Positions 29,667-47,325 of a stretch of 47,325 nucleotides of DNA are shown one piece after another (positions within the stretch are counted from its first letter, which is position 1; every line of letters begins with the position of its first letter). The stretch is from Lachnospiraceae bacterium (GTDB lineage Bacteria; Bacillota; Clostridia; Lachnospirales; Lachnospiraceae). The notes under the pieces are model-generated. The model ran no database searches. It saw nothing but the letters and a program-made list of their open reading frames with translations, and was not told the DNA's origin. A program made the position numbers and the translations under genes. The stretch covers positions 1 to 47,325 of the forward strand of contig JAUNIR010000011.1 in NCBI GenBank assembly GCA_030523345.1, read 5' to 3'.

Positions 29667-29692
29667 ATTATCACCCCAAATATCGACTTTAG

Positions 29693-30243: not shown

Positions 30244-30253
30244 ACTTGTGATG

Positions 30254-31699
30254 CTAAAAAATACCGGCATTTACGTTATGTTTTTCTATGATATCTTTAA
30301 TTTTTTGTGTTTCGTTTCTGTGCATAATTAGTCTTTTACAGATAAGCGGTAAAAGAATATTACACTCATCATCAGTATAAAGATTATCGGAGTAATCTTT
30401 ATTAATTTTTGTGCGAATTAAACTCATTTGCAGTTTACTTGGTTTTAATATGTCACTGTCTGCATAATCGACAGCTGCTGGAGATCCAACTAAATAAAGA
30501 GCTAATTCAAATAGCAGTTCTTCATCTCCAATTAGCATATCCAATACTTGTAAAAAATATCGGTAATATGCAGGATCAGTATCTGTTGGGTGAGCATATT
30601 TATATATGGAATTCAGAGCTTCCTTTGTTAGTCCAGTATACTTTTGAGGGGTTGAAAATGGTATATATAAGCAGTTGATATTGCCAAATAAATACGCATA
30701 ATCACAGCCCATTATATGTTTTAGTAACATTAAATCTCCGATATGAATTCTGACTTCATCATCAGCAGATTTCTTGCTTTCCCAGTTTTGTAATGTTCTC
30801 ATTACAGATTCAAATGAAGGCTGTTCTGAATGTAATTCCTTTGCTGCCTCACATAGCATTTCCGCAGCCTTTTTTTGAGTTATTCCTTTTAAATCACGCC
30901 ATGATTTTATTCTTGAACCAAGGGGGCTATCAGCAGAACATAGCGAATCATGCTTAATCAAATTACTCATATCGAAAGAAGGATCCATATCTGCAAAAGA
31001 GTCTTTTATTTTGCTGAGCAGATTAACAATTGTAAATAGATGTACATCCATTAAGTCGTTGTATTTTAATGTAGATCTTTTTACATCAAGTTCATTCTTG
31101 GTAACACAGGGAATATCTACATAAATAACTTGATCTTCTTTATCACTCTCTAATGTGGTTAGAAAGTAGCTAAGATACAATAATAGTTTTTCGTCTGTAG
31201 CAATACGACTAATAACTATTTGTTTTGTAAGTGCGAGCATTGAAAGTTCATCGTCAAAATCAAAAAGATTTATGTCAGATAAAGATAAAAGTGTTTCAAT
31301 GCTTGTGTTGTTAAGCCCCGTATAATCGACAAGTTCATTTGTATTTTTATGTAGCGTATTTATTTCACAAAATAAGAACTCATAATCACATCCGATAAGC
31401 TTCTTTAACAGGTATAAATCTGTCATAGAAAGAAGAATATTTTTAATTTCCTGATCATTGCTTTCCCAGGAAAGATACTTTCTCTGAATGCTGTCTATTT
31501 TTGATGGTGTTTTTCCAAGCTCTTCATAAGAATCATACAGATATTCAGCTATTTCGCGCTGAGTATATCCAGCTAATTCACGCCACTTTTTAAGGCGTGA
31601 TCCAAAGGTTTTATATTCATTGTAATTGAATTGAAAATACTTATCTTCAATGTCCCATATTTCATGCAATTCTTTGTCAGAAAAATCGAATAATACCAT
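30254..31699 (-). CDS. Protein with two tandem XRE-containing modules
   Basis: The 481-residue protein contains two copies of one module. Copy one is 'FGSRLKKWRELAGYTQREIAEYL' with 'LKKLIGCDYEFLFCEINTL' and 'YTGLNNTSIETL' (about residues 32-140). Copy two is 'LGSRIKSWRDLKGITQKKAAEML' with 'LKHIMGCDYAYLFGNINCL' and 'YTGLTKEALNSI' (about 275-385). Each has an HTH start and a helical rear. A regulator able to bind two sites is plausible, but I know no named family. Its GGAGG is 6 bases upstream of the ATG. It is transcribed away from the excisionase-like gene. The A+T-rich region between them has AAAGATATG twice (31817 and 31835). Confidence 0.7.
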   Translation of the reverse strand: MVLFDFSDKELHEIWDIEDKYFQFNYNEYKTFGSRLKKWRELAGYTQREIAEYLYDSYEELGKTPSKIDSIQRKYLSWESNDQEIKNILLSMTDLYLLKKLIGCDYEFLFCEINTLHKNTNELVDYTGLNNTSIETLLSLSDINLFDFDDELSMLALTKQIVISRIATDEKLLLYLSYFLTTLESDKEDQVIYVDIPCVTKNELDVKRSTLKYNDLMDVHLFTIVNLLSKIKDSFADMDPSFDMSNLIKHDSLCSADSPLGSRIKSWRDLKGITQKKAAEMLCEAAKELHSEQPSFESVMRTLQNWESKKSADDEVRIHIGDLMLLKHIMGCDYAYLFGNINCLYIPFSTPQKYTGLTKEALNSIYKYAHPTDTDPAYYRYFLQVLDMLIGDEELLFELALYLVGSPAAVDYADSDILKPSKLQMSLIRTKINKDYSDNLYTDDECNILLPLICKRLIMHRNETQKIKDIIEKHNVNAGIF

Positions 31700-32541: not shown

Positions 32542-32574
32542 TCTATTAAAAGAAAAAGAAAGGATGTGATTTTG

Positions 32575-34425
32575 ATGGCGATATATCATTGCTCAGTAAA
32601 GGTTCTTGGAAGGAATGAGGGGAAATCTGCTGTTGCTGCAGCTGCTTATAGAGCAGGAGAAGAGCTTACAAGTATATATGATGGAATAACAAGGGATTAT
32701 ACAAAAAAGGGATGGGTTGAGGATAAGTTCATAATGCTCCCAGACCATGCACCACAAGAGTATAAGGATAGATCCAAATTATGGAATGCTGTAGAAACTG
32801 CGGAGAAAGCTTCTAATGCTCAGCTTGCCAGGGAAGTAGAGGTATCGTTGCCAGTGGAAATGTCTAGGGAAGAACAGCTGGCGGTAGTTCGTGAATTTGT
32901 TCAAAAGAATTTTGTATCGCAAGGAATGTGCGCAGATATAGCAATTCATAATCCACCAGTAAAAAATGATAGGAATCAGGCTATTGATGCCGATGGAAAT
33001 CCAACAAAAGATCAAGGCAAAATGCAATTTAAGAATCCTCATGCACATATTCTTTTAACAGTCCGTCCAATATCAAAAGATGGCAAGTGGGAAGAAAAAT
33101 CAAAGGTTGAATATTTGTGTATGAAGGATGGAGAAGAGAAGGGTTTCACTGCTGAAGAGTTTCAAAAGGCAAAACTTGAAGGATGGGAAAAACAGTTCAA
33201 ATTTATTGATGGAAAAAAGAAGGTGTGGCTTCCTGGTTCTGTTGGAAATGAACGCGAATTAAAACGCGTGAATCGGACACCAAAGACAAGTCAGTATGGT
33301 AGAAAAAATCCAACAGTTGAATATTGGAATAGTGACGAGCGTGTTCCTGAATGGAGAAAAAGCTGGGAAGATTGCGTGAATAAAAAATTTGAAGAACTCG
33401 AAAAGGATATTCATATTGATAGTAGGTCATATGAAGCACAGGGGTTGGATAGATTACCGACTGTACATATGGGACCAGCAGCTATAAATATAGAGCGCAA
33501 AGCAGATAGAGAAGTGCGCGAAGGTGCATCTGAAAATGATGTGATTAGATCTGATATAGGCGATATAAATCGAGATATAAAGAAATATAATAATTGGCTT
33601 CTTTTAGCAAAGGCGATGCTTGAATCTAAGATTAGTAAGCTTAAATCTGCTATAGAATCAGTTGCTCCTACTGCTACTCATAAAGTAAATGAAGTTGAAG
33701 AATTTATTGATAAATTAAAAGAAAATAATGAGATATTCCAGATACCATCTGATAGCAAATATGCAGGACATTTTTCAAAAGATGCATTAAAGGATATGCG
33801 GGAACCTGATTATATAAGAAAGTATGTAAGATACTACAAGTTAGATTCATTTGGTTCTGTGACAGTTGCTTACAAAAAAGCTGAAAGTGAGATGCAGGTA
33901 TATCAGAGTACGCGACTTACCAATAAACAGAAAGCTGATCGATTAAAGGATTATGCTGAAACCTATCAAATGATACAAAAGGTTAAATCTGTGTATGAAG
34001 AAAGTAGAAAGAAATCTCCAGTAGGAAAGATTGTCTTTGATAATCTTCATAAAGAAGAATTGGCTGAATATCATATGCTTGTTGAAAAATTAAATGGTAT
34101 GTTGGACGGAGCACCTGTAACACCTAAAAAGTGGGATAAAGAGATAAATGCATTACAAGCTGAAATAGAGAATCTCGATAAAAAAATTGAGGCGAAATAT
34201 ACAGAACTTGTATGTGAGGAAGCTATTGAGCATACAGTGAAATATGGTGGAAAAGCAAAATCGTTAAAGCGTAAATTGGATGGAAAAATAGATGATGTAA
34301 AGCAAAAGGATAGAGACGATAATCCACCCCAAAATAGCGATCCATTACATTGCGGTATGAATGTTCCAGAAAGTGAAAAAACTGAAAATCGAAAAAAGAA
34401 CAAGCCATCATGGGATGCATTATAA
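32575..34425 (+). CDS. mobA: MobA/MobL-family conjugative relaxase
   Basis: The ATG at 32575 (MAIYHCSVKV) is preferred over the GTG at 32566, which is too close to the AAAGGA. The 616-residue protein has a MobA/MobL domain in the first 200 residues: 'SVKVLGRNEGKSAVAAAAYRAGE', then metal-binding histidines at about H125 ('IAIHNPP') and H146/H148 ('NPHAHILLTVRP'). The rear is a long helical, coiled-coil-rich region. The enzyme nicks one DNA strand at oriT and carries it through a conjugation channel. No coupling protein or type IV secretion gene appears in the window, so transfer would depend on a helper element or on genes past the right edge. Confidence 0.9.
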   Translation: MAIYHCSVKVLGRNEGKSAVAAAAYRAGEELTSIYDGITRDYTKKGWVEDKFIMLPDHAPQEYKDRSKLWNAVETAEKASNAQLAREVEVSLPVEMSREEQLAVVREFVQKNFVSQGMCADIAIHNPPVKNDRNQAIDADGNPTKDQGKMQFKNPHAHILLTVRPISKDGKWEEKSKVEYLCMKDGEEKGFTAEEFQKAKLEGWEKQFKFIDGKKKVWLPGSVGNERELKRVNRTPKTSQYGRKNPTVEYWNSDERVPEWRKSWEDCVNKKFEELEKDIHIDSRSYEAQGLDRLPTVHMGPAAINIERKADREVREGASENDVIRSDIGDINRDIKKYNNWLLLAKAMLESKISKLKSAIESVAPTATHKVNEVEEFIDKLKENNEIFQIPSDSKYAGHFSKDALKDMREPDYIRKYVRYYKLDSFGSVTVAYKKAESEMQVYQSTRLTNKQKADRLKDYAETYQMIQKVKSVYEESRKKSPVGKIVFDNLHKEELAEYHMLVEKLNGMLDGAPVTPKKWDKEINALQAEIENLDKKIEAKYTELVCEEAIEHTVKYGGKAKSLKRKLDGKIDDVKQKDRDDNPPQNSDPLHCGMNVPESEKTENRKKNKPSWDAL

Positions 34426-34446
34426 AATGTCATAATAGTGAGTCTG

Positions 34447-34469
34447 GTGCTCATATGAGCACTGGATTT
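34447..34469 (+). terminator. Palindrome after the relaxase, probable terminator
   Basis: GTGCTCATATGAGCAC is a perfect 16-base palindrome (34447-34462), followed by TGGATTTTT. It lies 22 bases after the relaxase stop, so it probably ends that transcript and insulates the defence operon. Confidence 0.55.
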
Positions 34470-34560
34470 TTGCTGTGAAAATGTGCTCGAAATGTGGATG
34501 AAAGGATGCAATGAAGAACGAATTTTTATGTTTTTGCGATTTGCAAAACTCAAAACAAAA

Positions 34561-34589
34561 TTGATTTTTGAGAAACGATATGGTAGTAT
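34561..34589 (+). promoter_or_regulatory. Promoter of the defence-operon regulator
   Basis: TTGATT at 34561-34566 and TAGTAT at 34584-34589 are 17 bases apart, a fair sigma-A match. The regulator gene starts 50 bases after the -10 box. Confidence 0.5.
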
Positions 34590-34639
34590 ATTGTTGGTGT
34601 TTTTTATCCATTTAGCAGAATGATTAAAGGTGATTAGCT

Positions 34640-34867
34640 ATGTCAATGAATTATAACAAATTATGGAAGCTCCTTATTGATAGAGGGCTGTATCGAAAAG
34701 ATTTGAGAGAAATGGCGGGCATTTCAACAAATGCTCTGGCAAAAATGGGAAAAGGTGGAGATGTTTCTACTCAGGTATTAGGGAAAATATGCAAAGCTTT
34801 AGATGTAAAAATAGAAGATATAGTTGAAGTGGTTCCAGACAAGTCCGATATTTTGGACACCAAATAG
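34640..34867 (+). CDS. Small XRE regulator heading the defence operon
   Basis: The 75-residue protein is a compact Cro/cI-type HTH: 'NKLWKLLIDRGLYRKDLREMAGISTNALAKMGKGGDVSTQVLGKICKALDVKIEDIVEVV'. This exact type (HTH_26, YozG-like) is often found directly in front of restriction-modification and other defence genes in Firmicutes, where it seems to set expression. AAAGGTGAT precedes its ATG. It is followed after about 60 bases by the PAPS-reductase-like gene. A GTCC-N8-GGAC dyad (34843-34858) lies in its 3' end and could be its operator for the genes behind it. Confidence 0.85.
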   Translation: MSMNYNKLWKLLIDRGLYRKDLREMAGISTNALAKMGKGGDVSTQVLGKICKALDVKIEDIVEVVPDKSDILDTK

Positions 34868-34925
34868 ACTATAATATATATGACTAGACTAAGTATGAGT
34901 ATGAACATAGGAGGTGAGCGACAGA

Positions 34926-36641
34926 GTGTGGTGCCGTAATTGTAATATAGAGACAAATGAAAAAGAGTGCCCGGTCTGTGGCGAGGAAACGGTCGAGGAC
35001 CTTCCTATTGAGGTTTATTGGTGTAAGCATTGTAAGACACCTATCATTCAGCTAACTAATCAGGCAGATAAGGGCGTGTGCCCAATTTGTGGAGAAAAAA
35101 CCAAATATCTAACTACAGATTTGAGACCTGTATTTCCGGAAGAACGTCTGTTGTTGGAAATATTATTAGATAAGAGACCAAATGAGTTTGTAAAAAGCTC
35201 CGTTTGGTCTGTTAATAGTAGGTATTATATTGATGGTAAAAGCATATCAATTCCGAGTAGTTTATTTCAGACAGCAGATACAGATGCTATTGCAACAAAA
35301 TTAAAAATGTATGAGTCTGAAAATACGTATGAGTATTTCAATGAGCACATACAGACTTTTATAGAAGCGAACCGGAATAGATTAAATTATTTAAAAGATG
35401 AAGCATTTGAATTTGTAAGAAAGACTGCATCTAAATTTGACGAGGAACGGCTTGTGATTTCATTTTCGGGTGGGAAGGATTCAACTGTAACAGCCGATGT
35501 TGTTTCGAAAGCCCTTAGTAACCCAAACTTAGTACATATATTTGGCAATACTACTTTGGAGTTTCCGTCTACAGTGGAATATGCAGAGAGATTTAGAGAG
35601 AATCATCCGCAAGCGATCTTTTTATTTGCAAAAAATGATGAGCAAGTGTTTATGGATGTATGCGAGGATATAGGACCACCAGCACGTATGATGCGTTGGT
35701 GTTGTTCTATGTTTAAGACCGGTCCTATTACGCGAGTAATCAATAGTTTGTATAGAAATCAACAGATATTGACCTTTTATGGAATTAGAAAATCCGAGTC
35801 AGTAAGTAGAAGTAAATATAATCGTGTTGAGGATGACGCGGAATCTGTAAAAATACAGCAGCAAACAGTAGCTTCTCCGATTTTCTTCTGGAAAGATATT
35901 GATATATGGCTTTATATGTTGGCTGAAGAGGTTGATTTTAATAAGGCATATAGATTGGGATATGATAGAGTAGGTTGCTGGTGTTGTCCTAATAATAATC
36001 AGAGGGCACAGTTTTTATCTAGAATATACATGCCGGAGCAGTCAAAAAAATGGCGCGATTTTCTTATTGACTTTGCAGTAAAAGTGGGTAAAGAAGATGC
36101 AGAGGTATATGTAGATACAGGAAAGTGGAAAGCGCGTCAAGGTGGAAATGGTCTTGCAGCGGCAGGTGACGTTAAGATTAAGTTCACGAACTGTACAACG
36201 GAAGACCATGCAAAAATTTATAGGTTAGTAAGACCTTTTGATGATGAATTAACAGGTATGTTTACGCCTTTCGGAAGAGTAGCGCCAGAACTAGGTAAGA
36301 AATTACTGAATGAGGTGATTGTGCTTGACTCTAGAACGAATGTGCCGATTCTATCAATACAGCCGTTTAGTCAGGATGGATATGAATATGCTGTTAAGGT
36401 GAGAACTATGAATGTTCAGGATCATGATGATTTGCAGAGAATGGTAGGTTATCAGATCCGAAAATATAATGCATGTAGAAAGTGCTTGAAGTGTGAGTCG
36501 ATTTGTCGAGCAGGAGCGATATCCATTTCAAGTGATAGTTATTATATAGATCCAAGCAAGTGTGTTCACTGTAAGATGTGCATGACCGCAAAATATTTAG
36601 ATGGTGGCTGCACAATGGATAAATATTTGCGTACTAAGTAA
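34926..36641 (+). CDS. sspD: PAPS-reductase-family Fe-S protein, SspD/DndC-like
   Basis: The start is placed at GTG 34926, since the earlier GTG at 34914 lies inside the AGGAGG; spacing is a little long. In the 571-residue product, residues 1-60 carry two zinc ribbons (Cys pairs near 3/6, 15/18, 33/36 and 52/55). A PP-loop domain follows with 'VISFSGGKDSTVTADVV' (SGGKDS near 181-186), 'MRWCCSMFKTGPI' and 'GCWCCPNNNQ'. The C terminus is a ferredoxin-like two-cluster region ('CRKCLKCESICRAGAIS', 'CVHCKMCMTAKYLDGGC'). DndC and SspD adenylate the DNA phosphate and take sulfur from a desulfurase. The neighbouring DUF4007, ATPase and desulfurase genes support that role here. The enzyme class is sure; the substrate is inferred. 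Confidence 0.82.
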   Translation: MWCRNCNIETNEKECPVCGEETVEDLPIEVYWCKHCKTPIIQLTNQADKGVCPICGEKTKYLTTDLRPVFPEERLLLEILLDKRPNEFVKSSVWSVNSRYYIDGKSISIPSSLFQTADTDAIATKLKMYESENTYEYFNEHIQTFIEANRNRLNYLKDEAFEFVRKTASKFDEERLVISFSGGKDSTVTADVVSKALSNPNLVHIFGNTTLEFPSTVEYAERFRENHPQAIFLFAKNDEQVFMDVCEDIGPPARMMRWCCSMFKTGPITRVINSLYRNQQILTFYGIRKSESVSRSKYNRVEDDAESVKIQQQTVASPIFFWKDIDIWLYMLAEEVDFNKAYRLGYDRVGCWCCPNNNQRAQFLSRIYMPEQSKKWRDFLIDFAVKVGKEDAEVYVDTGKWKARQGGNGLAAAGDVKIKFTNCTTEDHAKIYRLVRPFDDELTGMFTPFGRVAPELGKKLLNEVIVLDSRTNVPILSIQPFSQDGYEYAVKVRTMNVQDHDDLQRMVGYQIRKYNACRKCLKCESICRAGAISISSDSYYIDPSKCVHCKMCMTAKYLDGGCTMDKYLRTK

Positions 36642-36661
36642 CAGTTATGGAGGTTGTTGTA

Positions 36662-37558
36662 ATGACAATGAAGTTTCGTGCTCACGATACATTTTTCATA
36701 AGGAAAGGTTGGCTTAGCAAGGGCATGGAGCGTGTTGTTGCTAAGGATGATTTATTTGTAGATAAAAATGAAAATCCTATGGATGTGCTAGGGATTGGAT
36801 CAAACATGGTTAAGGCTTTGAGATACTGGCTACAGGCAGTCGGCTTAACAAAAGAAGCAACTAAGGGGAAAAGAGTACAGAGCTTAACACCACTTGGAAG
36901 AGAAATCTTTGCGCATGACAAATTTACTGAAGAATTAGGAACTTTATATTTGCTTCATTACCAGCTTGCAAAACAAACTGAAGAAGCAACTGCATGGTAT
37001 TACTTTTTTAATGAGTTTTCTGTGTCAGAGTTTACGAGGGAGGAATTTGTACAAGGACTGCAGAATTATATATTAATGACTGATGATACGGCTACAGTGG
37101 CAATCAGATCATTGAATGATGATTTTCAGTGTATTATAAATACTTATTTGCCAAGATTCAAATCCAATCCAGGAAAAGTTTCGCCAGAGAATAATATTGA
37201 TTGTCCGTTTGGTGAACTTGGGTTAGTAGATATAGCTAATAAGAAACAGAAGACTTATAAGAAAACAATACCATCAGCGAAGTCATTTAACCCTTGGGTT
37301 GTTTATGCAGTGATTATGGATCAGGCTGAAGGACGGAGTGAAATCGGGTTAAATGAACTTCTGACTAAACCTAAAAATATTGGAAAAGTATTTAATCTTG
37401 ATGCTATCACTATGTTGGATATTCTGCATGAGGTAGAAAATGCAGGCTTGATTAAAATTATTCGAACAGCAGGTCTTGATGTTATTCAGTTAAATAAACA
37501 GATGACATTTGATGATTGCGTAGCTAAGTATTACGAAACTATAGACGAAGAAATGTAG
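36662..37558 (+). CDS. sspB: DUF4007 protein, SspB-like
   Basis: The ATG at 36662 (MTMKFRAHD) has GGAGG 8 bases upstream; the ATG at 36647 precedes that site. The 298-residue protein matches DUF4007 through 'MKFRAHDTFFIRKGWLSKGM', 'DVLGIGSNMVKALRYWLQAVGL' and 'LTPLGREIFAHDKFTEELGTLYLLHY'. A C-terminal winged-helix-like segment is also visible ('LDAITMLDILHEVENAGLIKI'). In Ssp phosphorothioation this family, as I recall it, is the SspB DNA nickase that works with SspC and SspD. No classical nuclease motif is evident by eye. It lies 20 bases after the PAPS-reductase-like gene and directly before the large ATPase, the same company it keeps in ssp and some BREX-like loci. Confidence 0.85.
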   Translation: MTMKFRAHDTFFIRKGWLSKGMERVVAKDDLFVDKNENPMDVLGIGSNMVKALRYWLQAVGLTKEATKGKRVQSLTPLGREIFAHDKFTEELGTLYLLHYQLAKQTEEATAWYYFFNEFSVSEFTREEFVQGLQNYILMTDDTATVAIRSLNDDFQCIINTYLPRFKSNPGKVSPENNIDCPFGELGLVDIANKKQKTYKKTIPSAKSFNPWVVYAVIMDQAEGRSEIGLNELLTKPKNIGKVFNLDAITMLDILHEVENAGLIKIIRTAGLDVIQLNKQMTFDDCVAKYYETIDEEM

Positions 37559-37568
37559 GTGGATGTCA

Positions 37569-40500
37569 ATGAGCAAAATGATATCGGTTGCTTCAGGTTT
37601 TCAGTATTCGGTGAATATTGGATATGATCTGAACAATGATGATAAGTTGAAAAATTTTATACCGACTAGATCTGCGTTGGCATTAATGGAAGATATTCTT
37701 CTAAGCACTAATCCAACGTCTACAGAGAGAGCGAGAGTTCTTATTGGAGCATATGGTAAGGGTAAGTCGCACATCGTACTTACAATTCTTGCTATGCTCA
37801 TGAAGAGAGAGCGTTCATTATTCGAAAAAGCAATGCCAAAGATCCAGGAAAATCCAAGGCTTATGCAGATTGTAGATAATTATTATGATTCAAATAACAA
37901 AATTTTGCCTGTAATAATTACTGGAAGCAATACTAGTCTGCCTCAGGCTTTTTTGCTTGCGCTTCAAAGAACGCTATCTACTAATGGTTTATTAGACGTA
38001 ATGCCTGAAACAAATTATAAAGCAGCTGTGCAGGTTATTAATCGCTGGGAAAAAGATTTTCCAGAAACATATAAAAAGCTTAAAACAGAACTTGATATGC
38101 CGATTAAGCAATTTGTTGAGGCACTACAGAATTTCGATACAGAAGCATATGAAAGGTTTGAGAGAATATATCCTAGTCTTACTGCTGGTAGTATTTTCAA
38201 TCCATTTTTAGGTTTTGATGTGGTTGATCTTTATGAAGAAGCCGTTAGAGGTTTAAAGACAAAAGGATATACAGGAATTTATGTTATTTATGATGAGTTT
38301 AGTAAATTCCTCGAAGCTAATATAAAGGAAGCATCTGTGAGTGATACAAAAATGCTACAGGACTTTGCTGAAAAATGTAACAGAAGTGGCGAAGCGCAGA
38401 TGCATTTAATGCTTATATCGCACAAAGAAATTGCTAATTATATTGATAAGCTTCCAAAGCAGAAGGTAGATGGTTGGCGAGGTGTTTCTGAACGTTTTAA
38501 GCATATTCACTTAAATAATAATTTTACTCAGACCTATGAAATTATAGGATCTGCTATTCAGAAAAAGGACACAAAATGGGAGAAATTCTGTCAAAATTTT
38601 GCAAAGAGTTTCGAAGACATTTTTCAGAGATATGGAAAGCATAACATCTTTGGCGATGTAGATGAGGAATACTTGACGAAGACATTATATGCTTGTTATC
38701 CTCTGCATCCAGTGTCTACGTTTGTGTTGCCGAGATTGTCAGAAAGAGTAGCACAGAATGAAAGAACTTTGTTTACTTTTATTTCTGCACCTGGTGTATC
38801 AACATTGCCAGCTTTCTTAGAGACATATGAAGATGATCATTTTGAATTGATTACACCGGATCTTATTTATGATTACTTTGAACCGCTCTTTAAGAAAGAG
38901 GTATATGGCGGAAGTATACATGAAAATTATGTATTGACGGAAATGATACTGGACAAGCTTAGTGAAGATTCTCTTGAGAGAAAGATTATAAAGACACTTT
39001 CGTTGATATATATTTTGGAGCAGTTTGAAAAATTGCAACCTTCAAAAGATGAGCTTGTTAGCATCTATTCGATTAGCTATACGCCGGAAGAGATAAACCA
39101 AGCTATTGATAATCTAATTGAGAAGGAATATGTGATTTATCTTAAAAGAAGTAATAACTTTTTGAGATTAAAGCAGACATCTGGAGTAGATATCAGACAA
39201 AAAATAAATGATATGGTAGAAGTTCAGAGTAAAAAAACGACAGTGAAAGATACTCTGAATAACTCTAATTTTGATAATTATATATATCCGTCTCGTTATA
39301 ACAACGAGAGAGATATGATCAGATACTTTACATTTGAATTTATTGACGAGGATGAAGTGACTGATGATGTTGACTGGGTACTTAAGAGTGCCTCTATTGA
39401 TGCTGATGGCGTAGTTTATGGAGTAATTCCTCATAGCGAAGACTCTATTAGTAGGCTTAAAGATATTATTCTCAGAACTAGTGAAGCAACTGAAAGTATA
39501 ATATTCATTTTACCGAGACATTTTTCAGAAATAAGTGACATTGTTAAAGAATACAATGCTGTGTCAATACTTAGAGATGGAGCTAATGATGATAAGGTTC
39601 TTTTTGATGAATATGAAGTAATTTATGAGGATCTCAGAGAAGTAATTGGTACCTTTATGCGTGGATATACAAGACCAGAAGAGTATAAATCACGTTACAT
39701 TTATAAAGGCAATGAAATTGCGATCTCGAGAAAAGCAGCTTTGACAGAATTGATGTCTGCTATTTGTGATGAAGTGTATTCACTCACGCCGATTATCAAT
39801 AATGAGGCAATGAACAGAAATGAAATCACTGCTACAGCAAATAATAGTAGAAATAAGATTGTAGCAGCTTTGCTTCGAAATGAGTTAGAACCTAATCTTG
39901 GACTTACAGGCTCTGGACAGGAAGTTTCGATTATGAGGAGCACGCTTATTCGTACCGGTATTTGGGAAGAAAATGAGGGATTGCCTAAACTTAATTTGAA
40001 ACCAACTGTAGTGGAACATATTGATGAAATGCTGGCAGTAATCGAGGATTTCATTGTTGAGACAAGACAAAACGGTACAATGTCTTTCGATGAATTATAT
40101 TTCAGACTTACATCAGCTGAAGGAAAAATCGGACTTAGAAAAGGATTAATACCAATCTATCTCGCTGTAGTAATGCATGAGTATAAAAGAGAGATTGTTA
40201 TTTCAGACCAGTTTGGACAGGTTGCATTATCTGCTGAAACTTTGTTGCAGATAAACTCTAAGCCAGATATGTTTTCATTGGCATATCTTGATTGGGATCC
40301 TGAAAAGGAATCTTTTGTCAACAGATTGGCAGAGAATTTTGCTGAATATATTGTCGATGCCGAAAGAGGTGCAAATTCATATGATTACGTTGTGTCAGCT
40401 ATGCGTCGATGGTATATGGCATTGCCGAAGTACGTTAAGGAAAGTAAAAAAGGAGCAGATGGGAAAAAGCTTCCTAAAGCATATCAGGATCTGCTTAAGT

Positions 40501-41186
40501 TATTAAAACAAAATATAAGTGGAAATGAATTGCTATTTGAAAAACTTCCAAAGTTGTTTTCAATGACAGGGTTTCAGGAAACATTATCAGATAATGTGGG
40601 CGCAGTAAAGAAATACTACGATGATTATTTGAAAAATGTAAAAAAATGTTTGGCGAAGGAAACGAAGGAAGTGTTTATTCTTCCACAAAATAGAGATAAT
40701 GTAAACAAAATGTCATTATCTTCTGTGATTAAAGATTGGTGTGAATCTCTGGATCAGACCGTTTTTGAACAGCTGTTTACTGATGGTACAGAGAAGTGCC
40801 TTGGCTTGTTTAGGAGTATTACGAATGATGATGATCTTACGATAACAAGGCTTGCTAAACTTGCTACTGATTTGAGAATAGAAGATTGGGATGAAAAAGT
40901 TTCAGAGTTATATATAACCAGTATTAGGCGTTATAAGGAAACTGCAGAAGCACATCGTTCAGAATCGGCAGAGTCGCAGGAAACACAAAGTACAAGTACA
41001 TATCAGATTACATTTATGGATGATAGCGGAAAGGCTGTAACTAAAAGATTTAACAGCGTAGAAGGTACAGGCAAGGGAAGACTGTTACATAACCAGGTAA
41101 CAGCAGCGTTAGAATCTATGGGAAGAGCTATTTCTGATCAAGAGAAACGCCAGATTCTCATGGAGATACTAAAAAATTTATGTTAG
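37569..41186 (+). CDS. sspC: Very large P-loop ATPase, BrxC/SspC-like
   Basis: The start is at ATG 37569, 6 bases after AGGTGG. The 1205-residue protein has an unusual Walker A, 'VLIGAYGKGKSHIVLTIL' (near residues 58-75), and a Walker B-type 'GIYVIYDEFSKFLEA' near 240. 'LMLISHKEIANYI' follows, then 'YACYPLHPVSTFVLPRLSERVAQNERTLFTFI', a stretch characteristic of the BrxC/PglY and SspC group. The second half is helical with winged-helix-like pieces. In BREX and Ssp systems such ATPases are thought to load or move the modification complex on DNA. It sits between SspB-like and SspA-like genes. BrxC-like by motif, SspC-like by context. Confidence 0.8.
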   Translation: MSKMISVASGFQYSVNIGYDLNNDDKLKNFIPTRSALALMEDILLSTNPTSTERARVLIGAYGKGKSHIVLTILAMLMKRERSLFEKAMPKIQENPRLMQIVDNYYDSNNKILPVIITGSNTSLPQAFLLALQRTLSTNGLLDVMPETNYKAAVQVINRWEKDFPETYKKLKTELDMPIKQFVEALQNFDTEAYERFERIYPSLTAGSIFNPFLGFDVVDLYEEAVRGLKTKGYTGIYVIYDEFSKFLEANIKEASVSDTKMLQDFAEKCNRSGEAQMHLMLISHKEIANYIDKLPKQKVDGWRGVSERFKHIHLNNNFTQTYEIIGSAIQKKDTKWEKFCQNFAKSFEDIFQRYGKHNIFGDVDEEYLTKTLYACYPLHPVSTFVLPRLSERVAQNERTLFTFISAPGVSTLPAFLETYEDDHFELITPDLIYDYFEPLFKKEVYGGSIHENYVLTEMILDKLSEDSLERKIIKTLSLIYILEQFEKLQPSKDELVSIYSISYTPEEINQAIDNLIEKEYVIYLKRSNNFLRLKQTSGVDIRQKINDMVEVQSKKTTVKDTLNNSNFDNYIYPSRYNNERDMIRYFTFEFIDEDEVTDDVDWVLKSASIDADGVVYGVIPHSEDSISRLKDIILRTSEATESIIFILPRHFSEISDIVKEYNAVSILRDGANDDKVLFDEYEVIYEDLREVIGTFMRGYTRPEEYKSRYIYKGNEIAISRKAALTELMSAICDEVYSLTPIINNEAMNRNEITATANNSRNKIVAALLRNELEPNLGLTGSGQEVSIMRSTLIRTGIWEENEGLPKLNLKPTVVEHIDEMLAVIEDFIVETRQNGTMSFDELYFRLTSAEGKIGLRKGLIPIYLAVVMHEYKREIVISDQFGQVALSAETLLQINSKPDMFSLAYLDWDPEKESFVNRLAENFAEYIVDAERGANSYDYVVSAMRRWYMALPKYVKESKKGADGKKLPKAYQDLLKLLKQNISGNELLFEKLPKLFSMTGFQETLSDNVGAVKKYYDDYLKNVKKCLAKETKEVFILPQNRDNVNKMSLSSVIKDWCESLDQTVFEQLFTDGTEKCLGLFRSITNDDDLTITRLAKLATDLRIEDWDEKVSELYITSIRRYKETAEAHRSESAESQETQSTSTYQITFMDDSGKAVTKRFNSVEGTGKGRLLHNQVTAALESMGRAISDQEKRQILMEILKNLC

Positions 41187-41196
41187 GAGGACTGTG

Positions 41197-42342
41197 ATGG
41201 CATATTTTGATAATGCGGCAACTACATATCCAAAGCCGGAATGTGTATATGCCTTCATGGATGAATTTTACAGGAAAAGTGGTGGCAATGCAGGGCGTGG
41301 AGAACATTCTATGTCTACATCCGCCAGTGGTTTAATTGCGGATACAAGAAAGAAAATACAGATGTTGCTACATTGTCCTGCAAAGCAAGTTGTATTTACA
41401 CCAACAGCAACGATAGCTTTGAATATGATTATTCAAGGTATTATTGCAGATGGTGCAAAAAACATATATATAAGTCCTTTTGAGCATAATGCGGTCACAA
41501 GAACATTACATCATTTTGAAGACTATAATGAAATTACAGTGACACAATTAAGTGTTGAGAAAGACTTAAAATATGATATTGAAAAGATTAGATATCAGTT
41601 TGATGCGGTGAAACCCGATTTGGTAATAGTGAGTCATGCGAGTAATACTATTGGGTTGGTTGCTCCGGTAGAAGATATATTTTCATTAGCAAAGAAATAC
41701 GGCGCTACAACTTTGGTTGATATGGCACAGACAGCAGGGGTTGTCGATTGTAATGTTGGATTAACAACATTTGATTTTGCGGTATTTGCAGGTCATAAGA
41801 CACTATATGGACCTACAGGAATATCAGGTTTTATTATGAATCCAGCTATTAGATTACCAGCGGTCATATTTGGTGGAACTGGTTATGAATCGGCTAATCA
41901 GGATATGCCTGAAAGTATTCCTGAGAAGTATGAAATGGGAACATTAAATATTTCAGGGGTTGCAGGTCTTAATGCGGCGCTCGATTGGATACAAAGGACT
42001 ACAATCGAAGAATTAAAAAATAGAGAAGCATATAATAGACAAAAGCTTATAAATTTATTAGAAGAGTATGATTTTATTCGTATCGTAGGAAATGAACCTG
42101 GATGCAAATATGTTGGTATAGTATCTTGTTTGATTGACGAAATCAGTAGTGACAGTGCTGGTAGTGTATTTGATCAGCAGGGAATTGCGTTGAGAACAGG
42201 ATTGCACTGTGCACCATTAGCGCACCAGTTTATCGGAACATATCCTGCGGGGACAATAAGATTTAGTGTTAACTACTTTACATCAGAGCAGGATTTTGAA
42301 GAACTTAGAAATGCATTAGATTATATAGAAGAAAATTTGTAG
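41197..42342 (+). CDS. sspA: Cysteine desulfurase, SspA/DndA-like
   Basis: The ATG at 41197 has AGGAGG 6 bases upstream; the GTG three bases earlier is less likely. The 381-residue protein is a class V aminotransferase-fold enzyme with 'YFDNAATTYPKP' and 'NAGRGEHSMSTSAS'. The PLP lysine is in 'DFAVFAGHKTLYGPTG' (K201) and the catalytic cysteine in 'GIALRTGLHCAPLAHQFIGT' (C338). It belongs to the EF2568-like group of desulfurases rather than the IscS/NifS housekeeping type. It takes sulfur from cysteine as a persulfide and would hand it to the Fe-S PAPS-reductase-like protein. Position inside the operon, with no fe-s assembly genes nearby, supports a dedicated role in DNA sulfur modification. 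Confidence 0.88.
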   Translation: MAYFDNAATTYPKPECVYAFMDEFYRKSGGNAGRGEHSMSTSASGLIADTRKKIQMLLHCPAKQVVFTPTATIALNMIIQGIIADGAKNIYISPFEHNAVTRTLHHFEDYNEITVTQLSVEKDLKYDIEKIRYQFDAVKPDLVIVSHASNTIGLVAPVEDIFSLAKKYGATTLVDMAQTAGVVDCNVGLTTFDFAVFAGHKTLYGPTGISGFIMNPAIRLPAVIFGGTGYESANQDMPESIPEKYEMGTLNISGVAGLNAALDWIQRTTIEELKNREAYNRQKLINLLEEYDFIRIVGNEPGCKYVGIVSCLIDEISSDSAGSVFDQQGIALRTGLHCAPLAHQFIGTYPAGTIRFSVNYFTSEQDFEELRNALDYIEENL

Positions 42343-42359
42343 GAGGGAGGAACTGCTTC

Positions 42360-44576
42360 ATGGGATTTAAAGATCACAAAGTTAAGAGTGAGTATAGATC
42401 ACTAATAGATAATGTGGTTCAGGATTTTTATATCCCGTTGTTACGTGAATCTGTGTCATATAAAAGAGCAGTTGGTTTTTTCTCATCTTCATCGTTAGTA
42501 GAAATTTCTAAAGGTATTGCAGAAATGGCTTCGGAAGGTGGAAAGATTCAGATTGTAGCATCACCATATCTTTCAGATGAAGACATAGAGGCAATAAAAA
42601 AGGGATATGATGACAGAAATCAAATCATAGAAAAGGCTTTATTAGCTCAGATTGCAGAAAAACCTACCGATTACTATTCTATGGAGAGACTTAATCTGCT
42701 TGCTTCTTTGATAGCGGATGGAGTTATGGATATCCGAATTGCATATACAGAAGATCAACATGGAATTGGTATGTACCATGAAAAAATGGGAATTATTGAA
42801 GATGCGGCAGGAGATAAGATAGCATTTTCAGGATCTAATAATGAATCTGCTACAGCGATGTCCATAAATTACGAAACAATGGATGTATTTAGAAGCTGGG
42901 GGGATCCGAGCGAAATTGAAAGGGTACGTTTAAAAGAGAATGCATTCTATTCAATATGGCATAACACAGAGCCCAATATCAAGGTTTTAGAATTTCCTAA
43001 TATAACAGATGCATTAATAGAAAAGTATAGAAGAAGATCACCTAACTTTAATATTGATAAAGATCAATTTGCAAGGCGCATGTTAACATATGCAACAAAG
43101 GCAAGTGAAATTATTAGAGATAGTCAGGGACCTATAGGGGCACGTATCCCAGAAGATATTGAACTGCGTGAATATCAAAAGGAAGCTATAGCATCCTGGG
43201 TGGGAGAAAACTATCGTGGAATTTTTGATATGGCAACTGGTACGGGAAAAACATTAACAGGATTAGGTGCTATTTCAAAGTTGTCAGAAGATCTTCATGA
43301 TGTTCTAGCGGTTATTATTGTGTGTCCGTATCAGCACCTGGTAGAGCAATGGGTTGAGGATATTGTACGATTTAATATAAAGCCGATTATTGGTTATAGT
43401 AGTTCACCACAAAAAGACTGGAAGAAGAGATTAGCTAAAGCGGTTCGTGATCAAAAATTGCGAAGAGAAAAAAGTTTCTTCTGCTTTGTATGTACAAATG
43501 CTACTTTTACAAATTCAACTGTTCAGGAAGAAATTAGTAAAATACAATCATCGGTTCTTTTGGTGGTGGATGAGGCTCATAATTTTGGAGCGAGAAGCCT
43601 TTCAAGATTGTTGGATGATAGATTTACATATAGATTAGCTCTTTCTGCTACATTGGATAGACATAGAGATGATGAAGGTACAGCTTTTCTATATGATTTC
43701 TTTGGAAAGAAGTGTATAGAGTATTCACTAGAAAAAGCAATCGAACAGGATAAGCTTACTAAATATAAGTATTATCCATTACCAGTGTATTTGACGGATG
43801 AGGAACTTGAAAAGTATGAGCAGAAGTCATATGAAATGTCAAAGTGCTTAATAAAAGGTAAGGATGGTAAATATAAGCTTAATAAACGCGGGGAAATTCT
43901 TGCAATGGAAAGAGCAAGAATTGTTGCCGGAGCGAGTCAGAAATTGGAAGCCTTGAGGGAGTATATGGCTTCTTATGCAGATGATAATAATATTCTGGTT
44001 TACTGTGGGGCTACGAATGTGATTGACGAAAAGGCGGACAGTTCTAATACAGAGGAGGAAGATATTCGTCAGATAGAAGCTGTTACAAGAATTCTTGGAA
44101 ATGAGTTTCATATGGAAGTGGCAAAATTCACTTCAGAAGAAAACATGGAAACAAGAGCAACCATTAAAGAACAGTTTCAAAAAGGAGACAGACTACAAGC
44201 AATTGTTGCAATCAAGTGTCTTGATGAAGGTGTGAATATTCCAGGAATAAGAACGGCTTTTATTTTGGCAAGTACAACAAATCCAAAGGAATATATTCAG
44301 CGTAGAGGACGTGTATTAAGAAAGGCTGACAATAAACCGTTTGCAGAAATATATGACTTTGTTACATTACCAAGAGAATTAGATGCTGTTTCAGGATTGA
44401 CCACAGAGCAGGCGCAAAGAGACTTATCTCTTGTGAAAAATGAACTTGCAAGAATCAAAGAATTTGGAAGACTATCTATGAATTCAATGGAAGCAAATGA
44501 TTTGATTTGGGATATACAAGAAGCATATCATATCACAGAAGATGTCGATGATGATTCAGAAAGGACGGATCTTTGA
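42360..44576 (+). CDS. PLD-nuclease/superfamily 2 helicase fusion
   Basis: The 738-residue protein has an N-terminal phospholipase-D-like domain: 'KIQIVASPYLSDEDIEAI', then the HxK motif at 140-142 ('GMYHEKMGII') with 'FSGSNNES' at about 157-163. An SF2 helicase follows: Q-type 'LREYQKEAIASW', Walker A 'DMATGTGKTLTGL' (292-298), 'VVDEAHNFG' (DEAH 404-407), 'RLALSATLDR' and motif VI 'YIQRRGRVLRKAD'. Such fusions occur with DNA-modification and restriction genes. This one could remodel DNA for modification, or cut unmodified DNA. GGAGGGAGGA lies 9 bases before the ATG. It is the only clear nuclease-like gene of the cluster within the window. Confidence 0.85.
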   Translation: MGFKDHKVKSEYRSLIDNVVQDFYIPLLRESVSYKRAVGFFSSSSLVEISKGIAEMASEGGKIQIVASPYLSDEDIEAIKKGYDDRNQIIEKALLAQIAEKPTDYYSMERLNLLASLIADGVMDIRIAYTEDQHGIGMYHEKMGIIEDAAGDKIAFSGSNNESATAMSINYETMDVFRSWGDPSEIERVRLKENAFYSIWHNTEPNIKVLEFPNITDALIEKYRRRSPNFNIDKDQFARRMLTYATKASEIIRDSQGPIGARIPEDIELREYQKEAIASWVGENYRGIFDMATGTGKTLTGLGAISKLSEDLHDVLAVIIVCPYQHLVEQWVEDIVRFNIKPIIGYSSSPQKDWKKRLAKAVRDQKLRREKSFFCFVCTNATFTNSTVQEEISKIQSSVLLVVDEAHNFGARSLSRLLDDRFTYRLALSATLDRHRDDEGTAFLYDFFGKKCIEYSLEKAIEQDKLTKYKYYPLPVYLTDEELEKYEQKSYEMSKCLIKGKDGKYKLNKRGEILAMERARIVAGASQKLEALREYMASYADDNNILVYCGATNVIDEKADSSNTEEEDIRQIEAVTRILGNEFHMEVAKFTSEENMETRATIKEQFQKGDRLQAIVAIKCLDEGVNIPGIRTAFILASTTNPKEYIQRRGRVLRKADNKPFAEIYDFVTLPRELDAVSGLTTEQAQRDLSLVKNELARIKEFGRLSMNSMEANDLIWDIQEAYHITEDVDDDSERTDL

Positions 44577-44578
44577 TT

Positions 44579-44743
44579 ATGGAAGAAATTAAAATTGATG
44601 ACAAGGCGATTGAACGTTTAAAGCGTAAAATCATTCTTCAGGAAAACATGAACCTAAAAACAAAAACAATGTCTGATCCGCAGATGGTTAGTTGGATTAA
44701 GAAGAAAATAGAGGAGGAAGCACAGTGTTACTTCAATCGATAA
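44579..44743 (+). CDS. 54-residue conserved-looking small protein overlapping the DndD-like gene
   Basis: An ATG two bases after the helicase stop opens a 54-codon frame (MEEIKIDDKAIERLKRKIIL ... EEEAQCYFNR) that ends 19 bases inside the next gene. It is helical and strongly charged, with no Cys pairs or membrane segment. It leaves no gap in the operon, and without it 148 bases would be empty, which argues for real coding. From memory, small proteins at this place are noted in some DNA-modification clusters, but I cannot verify that. It could be an assembly factor for the DndD-like ATPase or a reduced DndE equivalent; the latter is only a guess. Confidence 0.6.
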   Translation: MEEIKIDDKAIERLKRKIILQENMNLKTKTMSDPQMVSWIKKKIEEEAQCYFNR

Positions 44744-46719
44744 AACTGGAGAACTTCCGCCAGTTCCGAAATGAATCTATTGATTTTGCTGACGGAAACA
44801 ATGGTAAAAATGTAACTATTATTATTGGTGAAAATGGTACTGGTAAGACTACATTTGCTCAAGCATTTTTCTGGTGTCTTTATGGGGAAACTGAATTTTC
44901 AGATAAAAATATGCTTAACAAAGTAGTGGCTTCTGAATTACGCCCAGGACAAGAAGCAAAGGTTCAAGTAGTTCTGAAACTCAGGCATGGAGATGTAGAT
45001 TATACCTTGATTCGTGAACAGGTATATAGAAAGGACTCATCAAATAAGATTAAGTCAGATAATACTGTTTTTGATATAGCAAAAAAGGATGCTTCTGGTA
45101 ATACTTCATACATCAAGAAGTCCGCTTGTGAGAGTGAAGTTAAAGGAATTCTACCTAAGGAGTTATCGAGATACTTCTTTTTTGATGGTGAAAGAATTGA
45201 AAAGATGAGTAAAGATATCTCTAATGGAAAAAAGGCTGCGGATTTTGCCGATGCAGTAAAGGGATTGCTGGGACTAAACGGTATGTACAGTGCAATTCAG
45301 CATTTTAACCCTAGAGTACGAAGTAGTGTAATCAGCAACTATGAGGCTAGCTATAATTCTCAGAGTAATGCAAAGATTAAGGAATACACAGATACAATTA
45401 ATCGTTGTAATGCTGAAATTGAACAAATTGATTCCAGAATAGAGGAACTGGATTCTGAGATTGAGACAGCAACAGTGCGTAAGGGTGATAAGGTAAAAGA
45501 ATTAAAGCAGTATGAAGAGGGAGAAAAACTTCAGGAAGAAAAGGAAAAACTTCAGCGAAAAATAGCAGCTGCGGAAAAATCTAAGGCAAATGTATACAAA
45601 TTGATGTCTAAAGATTTTAATGGAAATCTAAGTTCTTTCTTTTCTATATCACTTATTCAACGTGCGCTTGAATTGTTGTCAGAAAAAGATTTTGCGGGAA
45701 AAGATATTCCATATATGCATGCAAAGACAATTGAATATCTTTTGAAACAGAAAGTATGCCTATGTGGAACTCATTTGGACGAGGGAACAATTCCTTATAC
45801 AAAAGTCAAAGAACTAATAGATTTTCTTCCTCCACAGTCAATAAGTACTACAATAGGAGATTTTAAGAAGGAATCAAAGAGAAGAGCAGTAGACAAAAAG
45901 GATTTATATGGACAGCTGGCTGATCATATGGCTGTTATTAGTCAGCAGGATGATGATCTTACAGATCTTAGAGATGATTTAGCTATTGTTGAAGGTAAAC
46001 TGAGTGGTGGTGATGTTCGTGATAAAGTACGAGCAATCAATCATGAGATTCAGGTGTGTGATCAAACTATCACGAAAGATAGAGCTGAAAGAGATAGAAA
46101 AATAGCTGATAAAGCACGTAAAGAAAGTGAAAGAGATCGTGCTGATACAGAACGTCGAAACCTTACTTTATTGGACGAGACCAATAAGAAGATTGAAATT
46201 TATAAGACATATGCAGAGAGAATATATAAAGAATTGTTAGTGGAATATTCTACCAGTGAGGAAAAAATAAGAACTCGTCTACAGACAACGATTAATGATA
46301 TTTTCAAGCAGATATATAATGGCGGATTGTATCTTGAAATTGATGAGAAGTACCATATTTCTGTGTATGTTACTGATTATGAAGGAGATGTTGAAACGTC
46401 TACAGCACAGAGTATATCAGTAATCTTTGCATTTATTACTGGAATAATAAAAATGGCACGAGATAATAGAAACTCGACAGATGAGGATACAAAGTTACTT
46501 TCATCTGAGCCTTATCCGCTTGTAATGGATGCACCATTATCAGCTTTTGATAAGAGAAGAATAAAGACTGTTTGTGAAGCTTTACCTGAAACCGCTGAAC
46601 AGGTAATTATCTTTATTAAAGATACTGATGGTGAACTTGCAGAAGATTACATGGGCGATAAGATTGGTAGCAGACATCACTTCGATAAGAAGAACGAGTT
46701 TGAGACAACATTAGTATAG
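44725..46719 (+). CDS. dndD: SMC/Rad50-like ATPase, DndD-like
   Basis: The 664-residue protein starts at GTG, with GAGGAGG 7 bases before it. It has an ABC head ('LLQSIKLENFRQFRNE', Walker A 'IIGENGTGKTTFAQAFFW' with GENGTGKT at 35-42) and the DndD-type 'LSRYFFFDGERIEKMSKDIS'. A central coiled coil (about 200-300 and 420-500) is broken by 'VCLCGTHLDEG', a possible metal hook. The C-terminal head has 'YPLVMDAPLSAFDKRRI' (Walker B/D-loop) and 'QVIIFIKDTDGEL'. Length and motifs fit DndD, the ATPase of the DndCDE modification complex. Finding it in one operon with SspB/SspC-like genes is unusual, since the Ssp system uses SspC instead. Confidence 0.83.
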   Translation: MLLQSIKLENFRQFRNESIDFADGNNGKNVTIIIGENGTGKTTFAQAFFWCLYGETEFSDKNMLNKVVASELRPGQEAKVQVVLKLRHGDVDYTLIREQVYRKDSSNKIKSDNTVFDIAKKDASGNTSYIKKSACESEVKGILPKELSRYFFFDGERIEKMSKDISNGKKAADFADAVKGLLGLNGMYSAIQHFNPRVRSSVISNYEASYNSQSNAKIKEYTDTINRCNAEIEQIDSRIEELDSEIETATVRKGDKVKELKQYEEGEKLQEEKEKLQRKIAAAEKSKANVYKLMSKDFNGNLSSFFSISLIQRALELLSEKDFAGKDIPYMHAKTIEYLLKQKVCLCGTHLDEGTIPYTKVKELIDFLPPQSISTTIGDFKKESKRRAVDKKDLYGQLADHMAVISQQDDDLTDLRDDLAIVEGKLSGGDVRDKVRAINHEIQVCDQTITKDRAERDRKIADKARKESERDRADTERRNLTLLDETNKKIEIYKTYAERIYKELLVEYSTSEEKIRTRLQTTINDIFKQIYNGGLYLEIDEKYHISVYVTDYEGDVETSTAQSISVIFAFITGIIKMARDNRNSTDEDTKLLSSEPYPLVMDAPLSAFDKRRIKTVCEALPETAEQVIIFIKDTDGELAEDYMGDKIGSRHHFDKKNEFETTLV

Positions 46720-46729
46720 GAGGCACGCT

Positions 46730-47266
46730 ATGTTTGATAAGCAATATCGTTTTAAGGGTAGACATGCTGTGCGTGTTGACCAATTGACAAGTGCATTTGA
46801 TGCTGAAAGTAAAGCACAGTTGTTTGGAAGAAATATTGATGTATATGCGAATGCACCGTTAATAGGTTTTTTATATGGGAGAACTGCAGAACCAGATGAC
46901 ACAAAGAACCCTGAAACAAACCAAGTTTTTAATCAGAATGTAATGGGTGATAGAGTTATTTATTCGCAGGAAGAATTGATGTTTAATTTTCGATTGATAA
47001 TGTTGCTTGATAAGCAATATGAACCTGATGAGGATAAAAGAATTGATAAAGCTTTTCGTCATATGGGAGAAGATCCAAAAGATGAAGAAAGATTTGATAG
47101 CTATGTAAGAGGCGGAGTTGATGTATTGTATGAAAAACTCATTGAAGGTGCATCTGAGCCGGATGATTACATTAATAAGTTATATGAGTTTGTAGAAGAA
47201 TTTCAAGATAGATTTAATTCAGAAATATCAAGTGATGACATTATGCAACTGTGTATAAAGAAATAA
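46730..47266 (+). CDS. Unrecognised 178-residue protein of the defence operon
   Basis: AGGAGG precedes the ATG. The protein is acidic and soluble: 'RFKGRHAVRVDQLTSAFDAE', 'LFGRNIDVYANAPLIGFLYGRTAEP', 'NVMGDRVIYSQEELMFNFRLIMLLDK', and a helical C terminus ('LYEFVEEFQDRFNSEIS'). It is in the place where dndE follows dndD in dnd operons. It does not match the short basic DndE that I know, and shows no nuclease motif. It starts 10 bases after the DndD-like stop, so the two are co-translated. It is probably an operon-specific partner of the DndD-like ATPase. Confidence 0.72.
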   Translation: MFDKQYRFKGRHAVRVDQLTSAFDAESKAQLFGRNIDVYANAPLIGFLYGRTAEPDDTKNPETNQVFNQNVMGDRVIYSQEELMFNFRLIMLLDKQYEPDEDKRIDKAFRHMGEDPKDEERFDSYVRGGVDVLYEKLIEGASEPDDYINKLYEFVEEFQDRFNSEISSDDIMQLCIKK

Positions 47267-47280
47267 TATGAGGAAAAAGA

Positions 47281-47325
47281 ATGGGGAGAGACTTAAGACA
47301 GGAGGCGCTTACATATCTGCTTGAA
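47281..47325 (+). CDS. Start of a further operon gene (cut by window edge)
   Basis: After AGGAAAAAGA an ATG at 47281 opens a frame of 15 codons (MGRDLRQEALTYLLE) that is still open at the edge. The other nearby ATG (47268) stops after 18 codons. Too little is visible to assign a family; it continues the same operon. Confidence 0.5.
   Translation, partial: MGRDLRQEALTYLLE

Follow-up and report, generated by a model that had tools for sequence, protein, structure and literature searches.

A predicted DNA phosphorothioate defence operon that pairs an SspABCD-type modification module with a PbeABCD effector cassette

Results

We analysed a contig of 47,325 nucleotides from a Lachnospiraceae bacterium (GenBank assembly GCA_030523345.1, contig JAUNIR010000011.1), hereafter the window, which is the entire contig, and focus on an operon at its right-hand end. 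A small Cro/C1-type helix-turn-helix (HTH) regulator (34640-34867; Pfam HTH_26, E 3.1e-17) is followed by eight co-directional open reading frames (ORFs) at 34914-47266, separated by gaps or overlaps of a few bases, and by the first 15 codons of a ninth (47281-47325), a probable sigma-70 factor gene whose remainder is cut off by the contig end; all lie on the + strand. A first-pass annotation had described this layout of a regulator, eight genes and a truncated ninth, and we confirmed it. An HTH ORF related to the regulator was also found upstream of BrxP in several relatives. Judged by the families of their products, the eight genes form two modules: an SspABCD/BrxP-type modification module (34914-42342) and a PbeABCD effector cassette (42360-47266).

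The modification module begins with a sulfurtransferase (34914-36641) that has a PAPS-reductase fold (PF01507, E 7e-31), a C-terminal Fer4/4Fe-4S domain and zinc-ribbon-like N-terminal cysteine pairs, as the first-pass annotation had proposed. Its best PADLOC model is BrxP (7.1e-83), compared with 3.2e-13 for SspD, and the motifs SGGKDS, RWCC and CWCC are present in all 48 aligned sulfurtransferases, the window's included. The next gene encodes the DUF4007 protein SspB (36647-37558; PF13182, E 1.4e-86; PADLOC SspB 1.2e-60), also recognised earlier as a DUF4007 protein. It is followed by a giant ATPase (37563-41186) that had been called BrxC-like. A BrxC match exists (147 bits, E 1.5e-43), but the protein scores far better as SspC (449 bits, E 6.9e-135; both PADLOC models), and G-x-Y-G-x-GKSH and YDEF motifs are present in 41/41 aligned SspC sequences. 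The last gene of the module encodes the expected cysteine desulfurase, which is SspA-like (41194-42342; TIGR01977 above cut-off; PADLOC SspA 2.3e-45), carries the motif RTGLHCAPLAH and has a lysine (K202) and a cysteine (C339) that are invariant in 40/40 aligned SspA sequences. SspA, SspB, SspC and SspD/BrxP-type genes are all together in the window, and the catalytic residues for SspABCD modification (SGGKDS, the desulfurase lysine and cysteine, and the Walker-type motifs) are retained. We rejected an assignment to DndABCDE, for which the best NCBIfam scores were 38.9 bits for DndC (cut-off 290.4) and 99.2 bits for DndD (cut-off 245.85).

The BrxP score of the sulfurtransferase would also fit a derivative of type 4 BREX in which Pbe proteins replaced PglZ and BrxL. 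Published systems are described here from the passages of each source that were available; in these, type 4 BREX (brxPCZL) has a BrxP-type PAPS-reductase protein, DUF4007 and kin of BrxC/SspC (PMC12839542), and often a cysteine desulfurase (PMC12839542, PMC11931770). In the window, however, DUF4007 is a separate gene, the large ATPase favours SspC over BrxC by the margin given above, and PbeABCD follows. Furthermore, a scan of the nine operon proteins and 20 other ORFs of this contig, which is cut at 47325, detected neither PglZ nor BrxL, and we rejected a type 4 BREX assignment on that ground. We regard a BREX derivative as very unlikely, and type 4 BREX may instead be part of the ancestry of the operon.

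The effector cassette starts with PbeA (42360-44576; PADLOC PbeA 1.4e-245), an HKD (PLD) domain fused to an SF2 helicase; the earlier domain call, a PLD-helicase fusion, was right. The HxK, GSxN, GKT and DExH residues of PbeA are invariant in 32/32 aligned sequences. PbeB (44573-44743) had been noted as a 54-residue protein; the gene is present and, with a start upstream of that internal ATG, encodes 56 residues and overlaps both neighbours. PbeB had no PADLOC match and is assigned by position and size. A profile of the window protein picks up ORFs at the same position in relatives (29 loci listed), and its likeness to the three plasmid PbeB proteins tested is weak (13.5, 1.2 and 0.9 bits). 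The ABC ATPase PbeC (44725-46719; PADLOC PbeC 1.5e-105) carries a CxC motif formed by C345 and C347, which are present in 27/28 and 28/28 aligned sequences, respectively. It had been described as DndD-like. Its kinship to Dnd proteins holds, but it falls below the DndD cut-off and scores 352 bits as PbeC compared with 129 bits for the best DndD model of PADLOC.

The eighth gene (46730-47266) encodes a protein of 178 residues, DndE-cognate by position, that had been listed as unknown. It has no match in PADLOC, Pfam or NCBIfam. Nevertheless, its profile matches the positional PbeD of two haloarchaeal plasmids and one Lactiplantibacillus plasmid (16-33 bits in a 13-protein search). In an AlphaFold model of the protein (pLDDT 90.2, pTM 0.84), the first two helices are separated by 15 residues, in keeping with the description of clade-2 DndE, and the later helix spacing is not clearly matched. 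We consider it a likely, although not proved, member of PbeD. These assignments agree with a published account (PMC10853773) in which PbeA joins an HKD nuclease to an SF2 helicase, PbeB is small and evolves fast, PbeC belongs to the CxC ABC ATPases and PbeD is the DndE partner of PbeC. The first-pass annotation had read the operon as an Ssp/Dnd hybrid with a BREX-like ATPase and no restriction module. What survives is an Ssp branch accompanied by a Dnd-kin ABC ATPase. A mixed Dnd/Ssp modification enzyme was rejected, as the ABC protein is of PbeC type and genes 5-8 match a known effector and look like the restriction module said to be missing. A PADLOC scan of the nine operon proteins found no SspE or SspFGH partner.

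We collected relatives by scanning the contigs of GTDB genomes with the window's SspB (51 loci) and added one locus from 61 kin genomes, giving 52. SspA was complete in 39 of these, and 37 of the 39 had at least 900 bases behind it. The next same-strand gene behind SspA was PbeA in 31/37 loci; in 30 of the 31, PbeA has at least 600 residues and the gap is up to 315 bases, and in L011 it is cut by the contig end. The median SspA-PbeA gap is 12 bases (25 loci). The order BrxP-SspB-SspC is present in 38/38 relatives in which all three are complete, and a deeper branch (G119) has SspB-SspC-BrxP-SspA and then PbeABCD. A gene order shared by tens of relatives rules out chance, and the earlier suggestion of looking for DUF4007 near a DndD-like gene in conserved order was thereby borne out. 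The record titles of the relatives include Bacillota, Treponema and Helicobacteraceae; many are metagenome bins, and some hosts may be wrong.

PbeA is absent in three of the 37 loci. In L017, the related modification module precedes SspF- and SspG-like genes, and L018 has ORFs near-identical to these in place of PbeA (judged from the ORFs, the family scan having been done on L017). In L047, a GmrSD_N gene follows the modification module, where the SspE model reaches just 2.5e-05. A more distant modification module (L080) precedes SspF/G/H-like genes. The replacement of PbeA by SspFGH-like or GmrSD-type genes in three relatives supports a phosphorothioation role for the modification module. In L021, PbeA sits behind an ORF of 1006 residues (L021:7751-10768) that separates it from SspA. 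This ORF matches sigma-70 region 4 (9.1e-07) and, weakly, the RNA polymerase alpha-CTD, and its product is possibly an independent transcription-related partner. Locus L025 (394-5093) is rearranged, with PbeC, PbeB, a broken PbeA and SspA on one strand opposite PbeD and another PbeB-like ORF, which reflects either an assembly error or a real inversion.

We surveyed 391 sampled genomes of the class for both families, with the window's genome counted once in each tally. DUF4007 was detected in 7/391 at E 0.001 (six above the family cut-off) and PbeA in 6/391 at E 1e-60 or better; neither was found in 14 control genomes. The sample holds eight PbeA loci, of which four lie beside Ssp-type genes (G000, the window's own genome, twice; G119; G344). 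Three lie beside Dnd genes, with DndC confirmed in all three and DndD and DndB checked in L076, and at one (G125 contig C11) neither Ssp nor Dnd genes were recognised. The second locus of the window's own genome (contig C11, L073:1-4847) is a diverged Ssp-Pbe-type locus with BrxP-like, SspA-like and PbeA genes, cut at both ends.

We compared pairwise identities of seven proteins across 26 loci, the window included (325 pairs, Spearman correlation). Within the modification module (BrxP, SspB, SspC, SspA) rho was 0.79-0.90 and within the effector module (PbeA, PbeC, PbeD) 0.79-0.88; between modules it was 0.06-0.18. A Mantel comparison of modification with effector proteins gave rho 0.09 (p 0.13). 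The window and L003 illustrate the pattern: they share 84% mean identity over the four modification proteins and 33% over the three effector proteins (25% for PbeC), with a break point between sspA and pbeA. Since the modules evolve almost independently, effectors are swapped behind related modification modules, and we read the Pbe cassette as moving in one piece. DndCD and PbeAC have likewise been reported as nearly uncorrelated (rho 0.107; PMC6459918).

Nearly uncorrelated identities would also be expected of independent systems that merely share a location, the modification genes acting alone or with distant effectors and PbeABCD acting without reading phosphorothioate (PT). The same published survey lends this some weight, as 320 of 553 pbeAC loci have no dndCD nearby (PMC6459918). 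Yet a median gap of 12 bases, in relatives whose record titles span several phyla, would be hard to keep without joint use, and haloarchaeal PbeABCD depends on PT (PMC6459918). We therefore consider independent systems improbable and favour two modules acting together.

The place behind pbeD was readable in 23 relatives, and 12 of them carry a sigma-70 gene there (L004, L005, L019, L020, L022, L023, L024, L029, L030, L041, L044 and G056/L055), mostly encoding 359-379 residues. The L023 gene lies some 400 bases downstream and was left out of the alignment. All sigma regions are present in ten of the 11 aligned proteins; that of L024, at a contig end, is without region 4. The L055 protein matches region 4 (E 4.4e-17) and region 2 (E 6e-14), and region 1.1 at just 0.11. 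SigA chains align to the family profile from position 6 to 367 of 368 (E 8.4e-70), and a TRER[IV]RQIE helix is kept in 10/11 aligned proteins. Compared with 20 housekeeping-like sigma factors, which are at least 67% identical to one another, the cassette proteins have 19-40% identity. In a tree, 10/11 form a clade apart from these 20 (support 0.99), with the L055 protein outside. The 15 codons of the window follow pbeD after 14 bases, the same spacing as in L020 and L041, and their residue pattern matches the sigma proteins of the relatives. A search of the 391 genomes with the sigma N-terminus matched 166, mostly once each, with a best score of 42.7 bits among the matches listed. From their sequences these look like housekeeping sigma factors, and no strong extra member of the family was among the matches listed.

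The effector tree places the 12 sigma-bearing loci and the window in a single clade (support 1.0). In the modification tree, the sigma-bearing loci are scattered over several groups, and L041 groups with four loci that carry another ninth gene (L007, L009, L010 and L049; support 1.0). The sigma gene is linked to one effector lineage. Sigma divergence correlates with that of the effector proteins at rho 0.67-0.78 and with that of the modification proteins at 0.61-0.71 (11 loci), and the trees are better evidence than these values for which module the sigma gene tracks. The product of the other ninth gene is acidic, has about 305-420 residues and is significantly alike in L007, L009, L010, L013, L014 and L049; the ninth genes of L045, L034 and L032 were assigned to this type on weak or by-eye likeness. 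The acidic protein had no Pfam match (L074) and no PADLOC match (L109), and in this other Pbe lineage it could fill the role of the sigma factor (L109:1498-2412). Yet other genes occupy the ninth position in L003 and L033. At the three Dnd-linked Pbe loci no sigma gene was among the listed ORFs, and no scan aimed at sigma was made there.

The architecture of the cassette sigma factor invites the view that it activates transcription of its own operon. This has a parallel in the mzaABCDE defence system, whose MzaA component is called a sigma factor (PMC9523054): 6/6 cassette sigma proteins scanned match the PADLOC MzaA model (E 5e-22 to 3e-47), the matches covering just positions 402-669 of a 683-position profile. 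No MzaB-E turned up among the proteins of the window's operon; in relatives, the scan covered part of the genes flanking sigma. Own-operon activation is not helped by the search for promoter-like sites at 34426-36000, which found two against 6.4 expected and none above chance, and an HTH regulator already leads the operon. We hold it to be possible, as a tentative proposal, and weigh it above a second explanation. Phage anti-sigma proteins target sigma, and a primary-type sigma factor that retains the TRER[IV]RQIE helix despite its low identity to housekeeping-like proteins, and that is linked to one effector lineage, might serve as a bait or spare for the housekeeping sigma, its binding by a phage anti-sigma sustaining transcription or freeing the effector. 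An operon-specific sigma factor accounts for the same facts, however, and other Pbe lineages carry other ninth genes, implying that sigma is not needed for Pbe as such; we consider a bait unlikely.

Further genes were seen near pbeD in other loci. DndB-like genes lie slightly downstream of the sigma gene at L102:4983-6254 (PADLOC DndB 1.8e-28) and L105:3417-4676 (6e-20). Behind the sigma gene, L101:10871-11908 has a PADLOC NsnA match (2.3e-47), followed by a kinase-like ORF (judged by eye), a possible further defence layer. On a Natrinema plasmid, a gene for a TFIIB-family initiation factor lies two genes behind PbeABCD (L120:12396-13319). The TFIIB family is the archaeal counterpart of the sigma factor. 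We did not use this gene as a parallel to the cassette sigma, as it is listed at one of two haloarchaeal plasmid loci and not at the second, which is too little to use.

The mobile-element setting proposed by the first-pass annotation is supported by a MobA/MobL relaxase to the left of the regulator (32566-34425, + strand; PF03389, E 1.6e-78) and a large serine recombinase (27291-29162, - strand; PF00239 and PF07508). The left part of the element (24309-31699) holds a DUF6551 gene, the serine recombinase and HTH regulators, and adjoins type II/IV secretion-like and flagellin genes.

Discussion

Gene content, retained catalytic residues, gene order, modules that evolve almost independently and the association of sigma with one effector lineage are all observed at these loci. 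We propose, at a probability of roughly 0.78, that the operon is a two-module PT defence system, with sulfur chemistry, mark reading and antiviral action modelled on the named homologues. SspE and SspFGH work together with SspABCD phosphorothioation (PMC8092258), and SspB is reported as a nickase required for it (PMC9239217). PbeABCD beside dndCDEA is a PT-dependent antiviral effector that PT-modified virus escapes (PMC6459918). By analogy, SspA would draw sulfur from cysteine and the BrxP/SspD-like Fe-S protein would activate it and pass it on; SspB would select the site and probably nick it, and SspC would drive or position the complex. Some of the copies of a short motif in the cell's own DNA would thereby come to carry sulfur. 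The ABC ATPase PbeC and its partner PbeD would then scan DNA and, on unmarked DNA, PbeA, with its helicase and HKD domains, would halt replication of the invader or cut it, with PbeB a small adaptor or brake. The effector cassette would be swapped as a unit, and the lineage in the window would bring its own sigma-70 factor. The PT chemistry, the nicking step of SspB and the dependence of PbeABCD on the mark are thus inferred from the homologues.

Several results weigh against parts of this proposal. PbeA is broken in two of the 37 loci, L025 and L046. Profile comparison did not support PbeD as DndE: hhalign gave a probability of 0.5% against a bacterial DndE profile (a three-sequence template), and no significant hit emerged when PDB sequences were searched with a profile (best E 0.2). 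In the published archaeal system, PbeABCD did not cut viral DNA (PMC6459918), which makes cleavage by PbeA uncertain. The Mantel correlation of SspC with PbeA was small yet not nil (rho 0.18, p 0.022), and modules that co-evolve weakly could also be plain neighbours. Finally, the ninth gene of the window is a probable sigma-70 factor, an identity read from 15 codons alone, and the 95 N-terminal sigma residues of a relative had no match in the window's genome. As this genome is 91.55% complete, the remainder of the gene is probably unassembled.

The component parts have been named before; what appears new against the literature searched is the SspABCD-PbeABCD pairing and the cassette sigma. Like SspABCD with SspE or SspFGH (PMC8092258), the window has SspA, SspB (DUF4007), SspC and a PAPS-reductase-type sulfurtransferase in one operon, and the related modules of L017 and L080 precede SspFGH-like genes. 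Unlike it, the window has PbeABCD as effector and a sulfurtransferase that scores as BrxP, with extra cysteine pairs and a 4Fe-4S domain. The DndCDEA-PbeABCD system of Haloterrigena jeotgali (PMC6459918) shares the PbeA-B-C-D order, with PbeB of 66 residues compared with 56 in the window and PbeD of 152 compared with 178. It differs in that the window's modification genes are Ssp-type rather than dndCDEA and that a sigma-70 gene lies behind pbeD in the window's lineage. CxC ABC-ATPase/DndE systems likewise combine a CxC PbeC, an HKD-SF2 protein, a small protein and a PbeD partner, but are linked to Dnd genes or cytosine methylases (PMC10853773). The passages of that source place a sigma-related HTH inside some DndH and showed neither a combination with Ssp genes nor a free-standing sigma gene. 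A sigma factor in a defence operon has a precedent in MzaABCDE (PMC9523054), from which the cassette differs in the partial MzaA profile coverage and in the other Mza components, not found among the window operon proteins. Neither the SspABCD-PbeABCD pairing nor a cassette-borne sigma factor in PT systems was found in the passages of the literature searched; the type 4 BREX preprint, the 2020 SspABCD-SspE paper and a 2024 review may note the pairing. PMC7464106 tallies, genus by genus, the strains that have PT genes and pbeA-D within 20 kb windows, and an ssp-pbe operon is not named in its passages.

The pairing answers part of two puzzles. Among 2,678 sspBCD loci, 196 had sspFGH and 199 had sspE, 36 additional genomes had both, and most loci were without a recognised effector nearby (PMC8092258); conversely, many pbeAC loci stand without dndCD. 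Furthermore, the contrast between the window and L003 is a natural experiment on whether the effector reads the sequence motif or sulfur itself. The effector-lineage-linked sigma factor hints that PT defence and transcription are connected. A further suggestion, which we regard as doubtful, is that the exchangeable Pbe cassette couples mark-sensing to host transcription, with its diverged, primary-type sigma steering RNA polymerase and PbeCD to incoming promoters or acting as a trip-wire for sigma takeover by phage; if true, the effector would read transcription initiation on unmarked DNA and not the missing mark alone. Collectively, our analysis suggests that genes on this mobile element probably mark the DNA of their own cell with sulfur and that an interchangeable cassette would block invaders that lack the mark.

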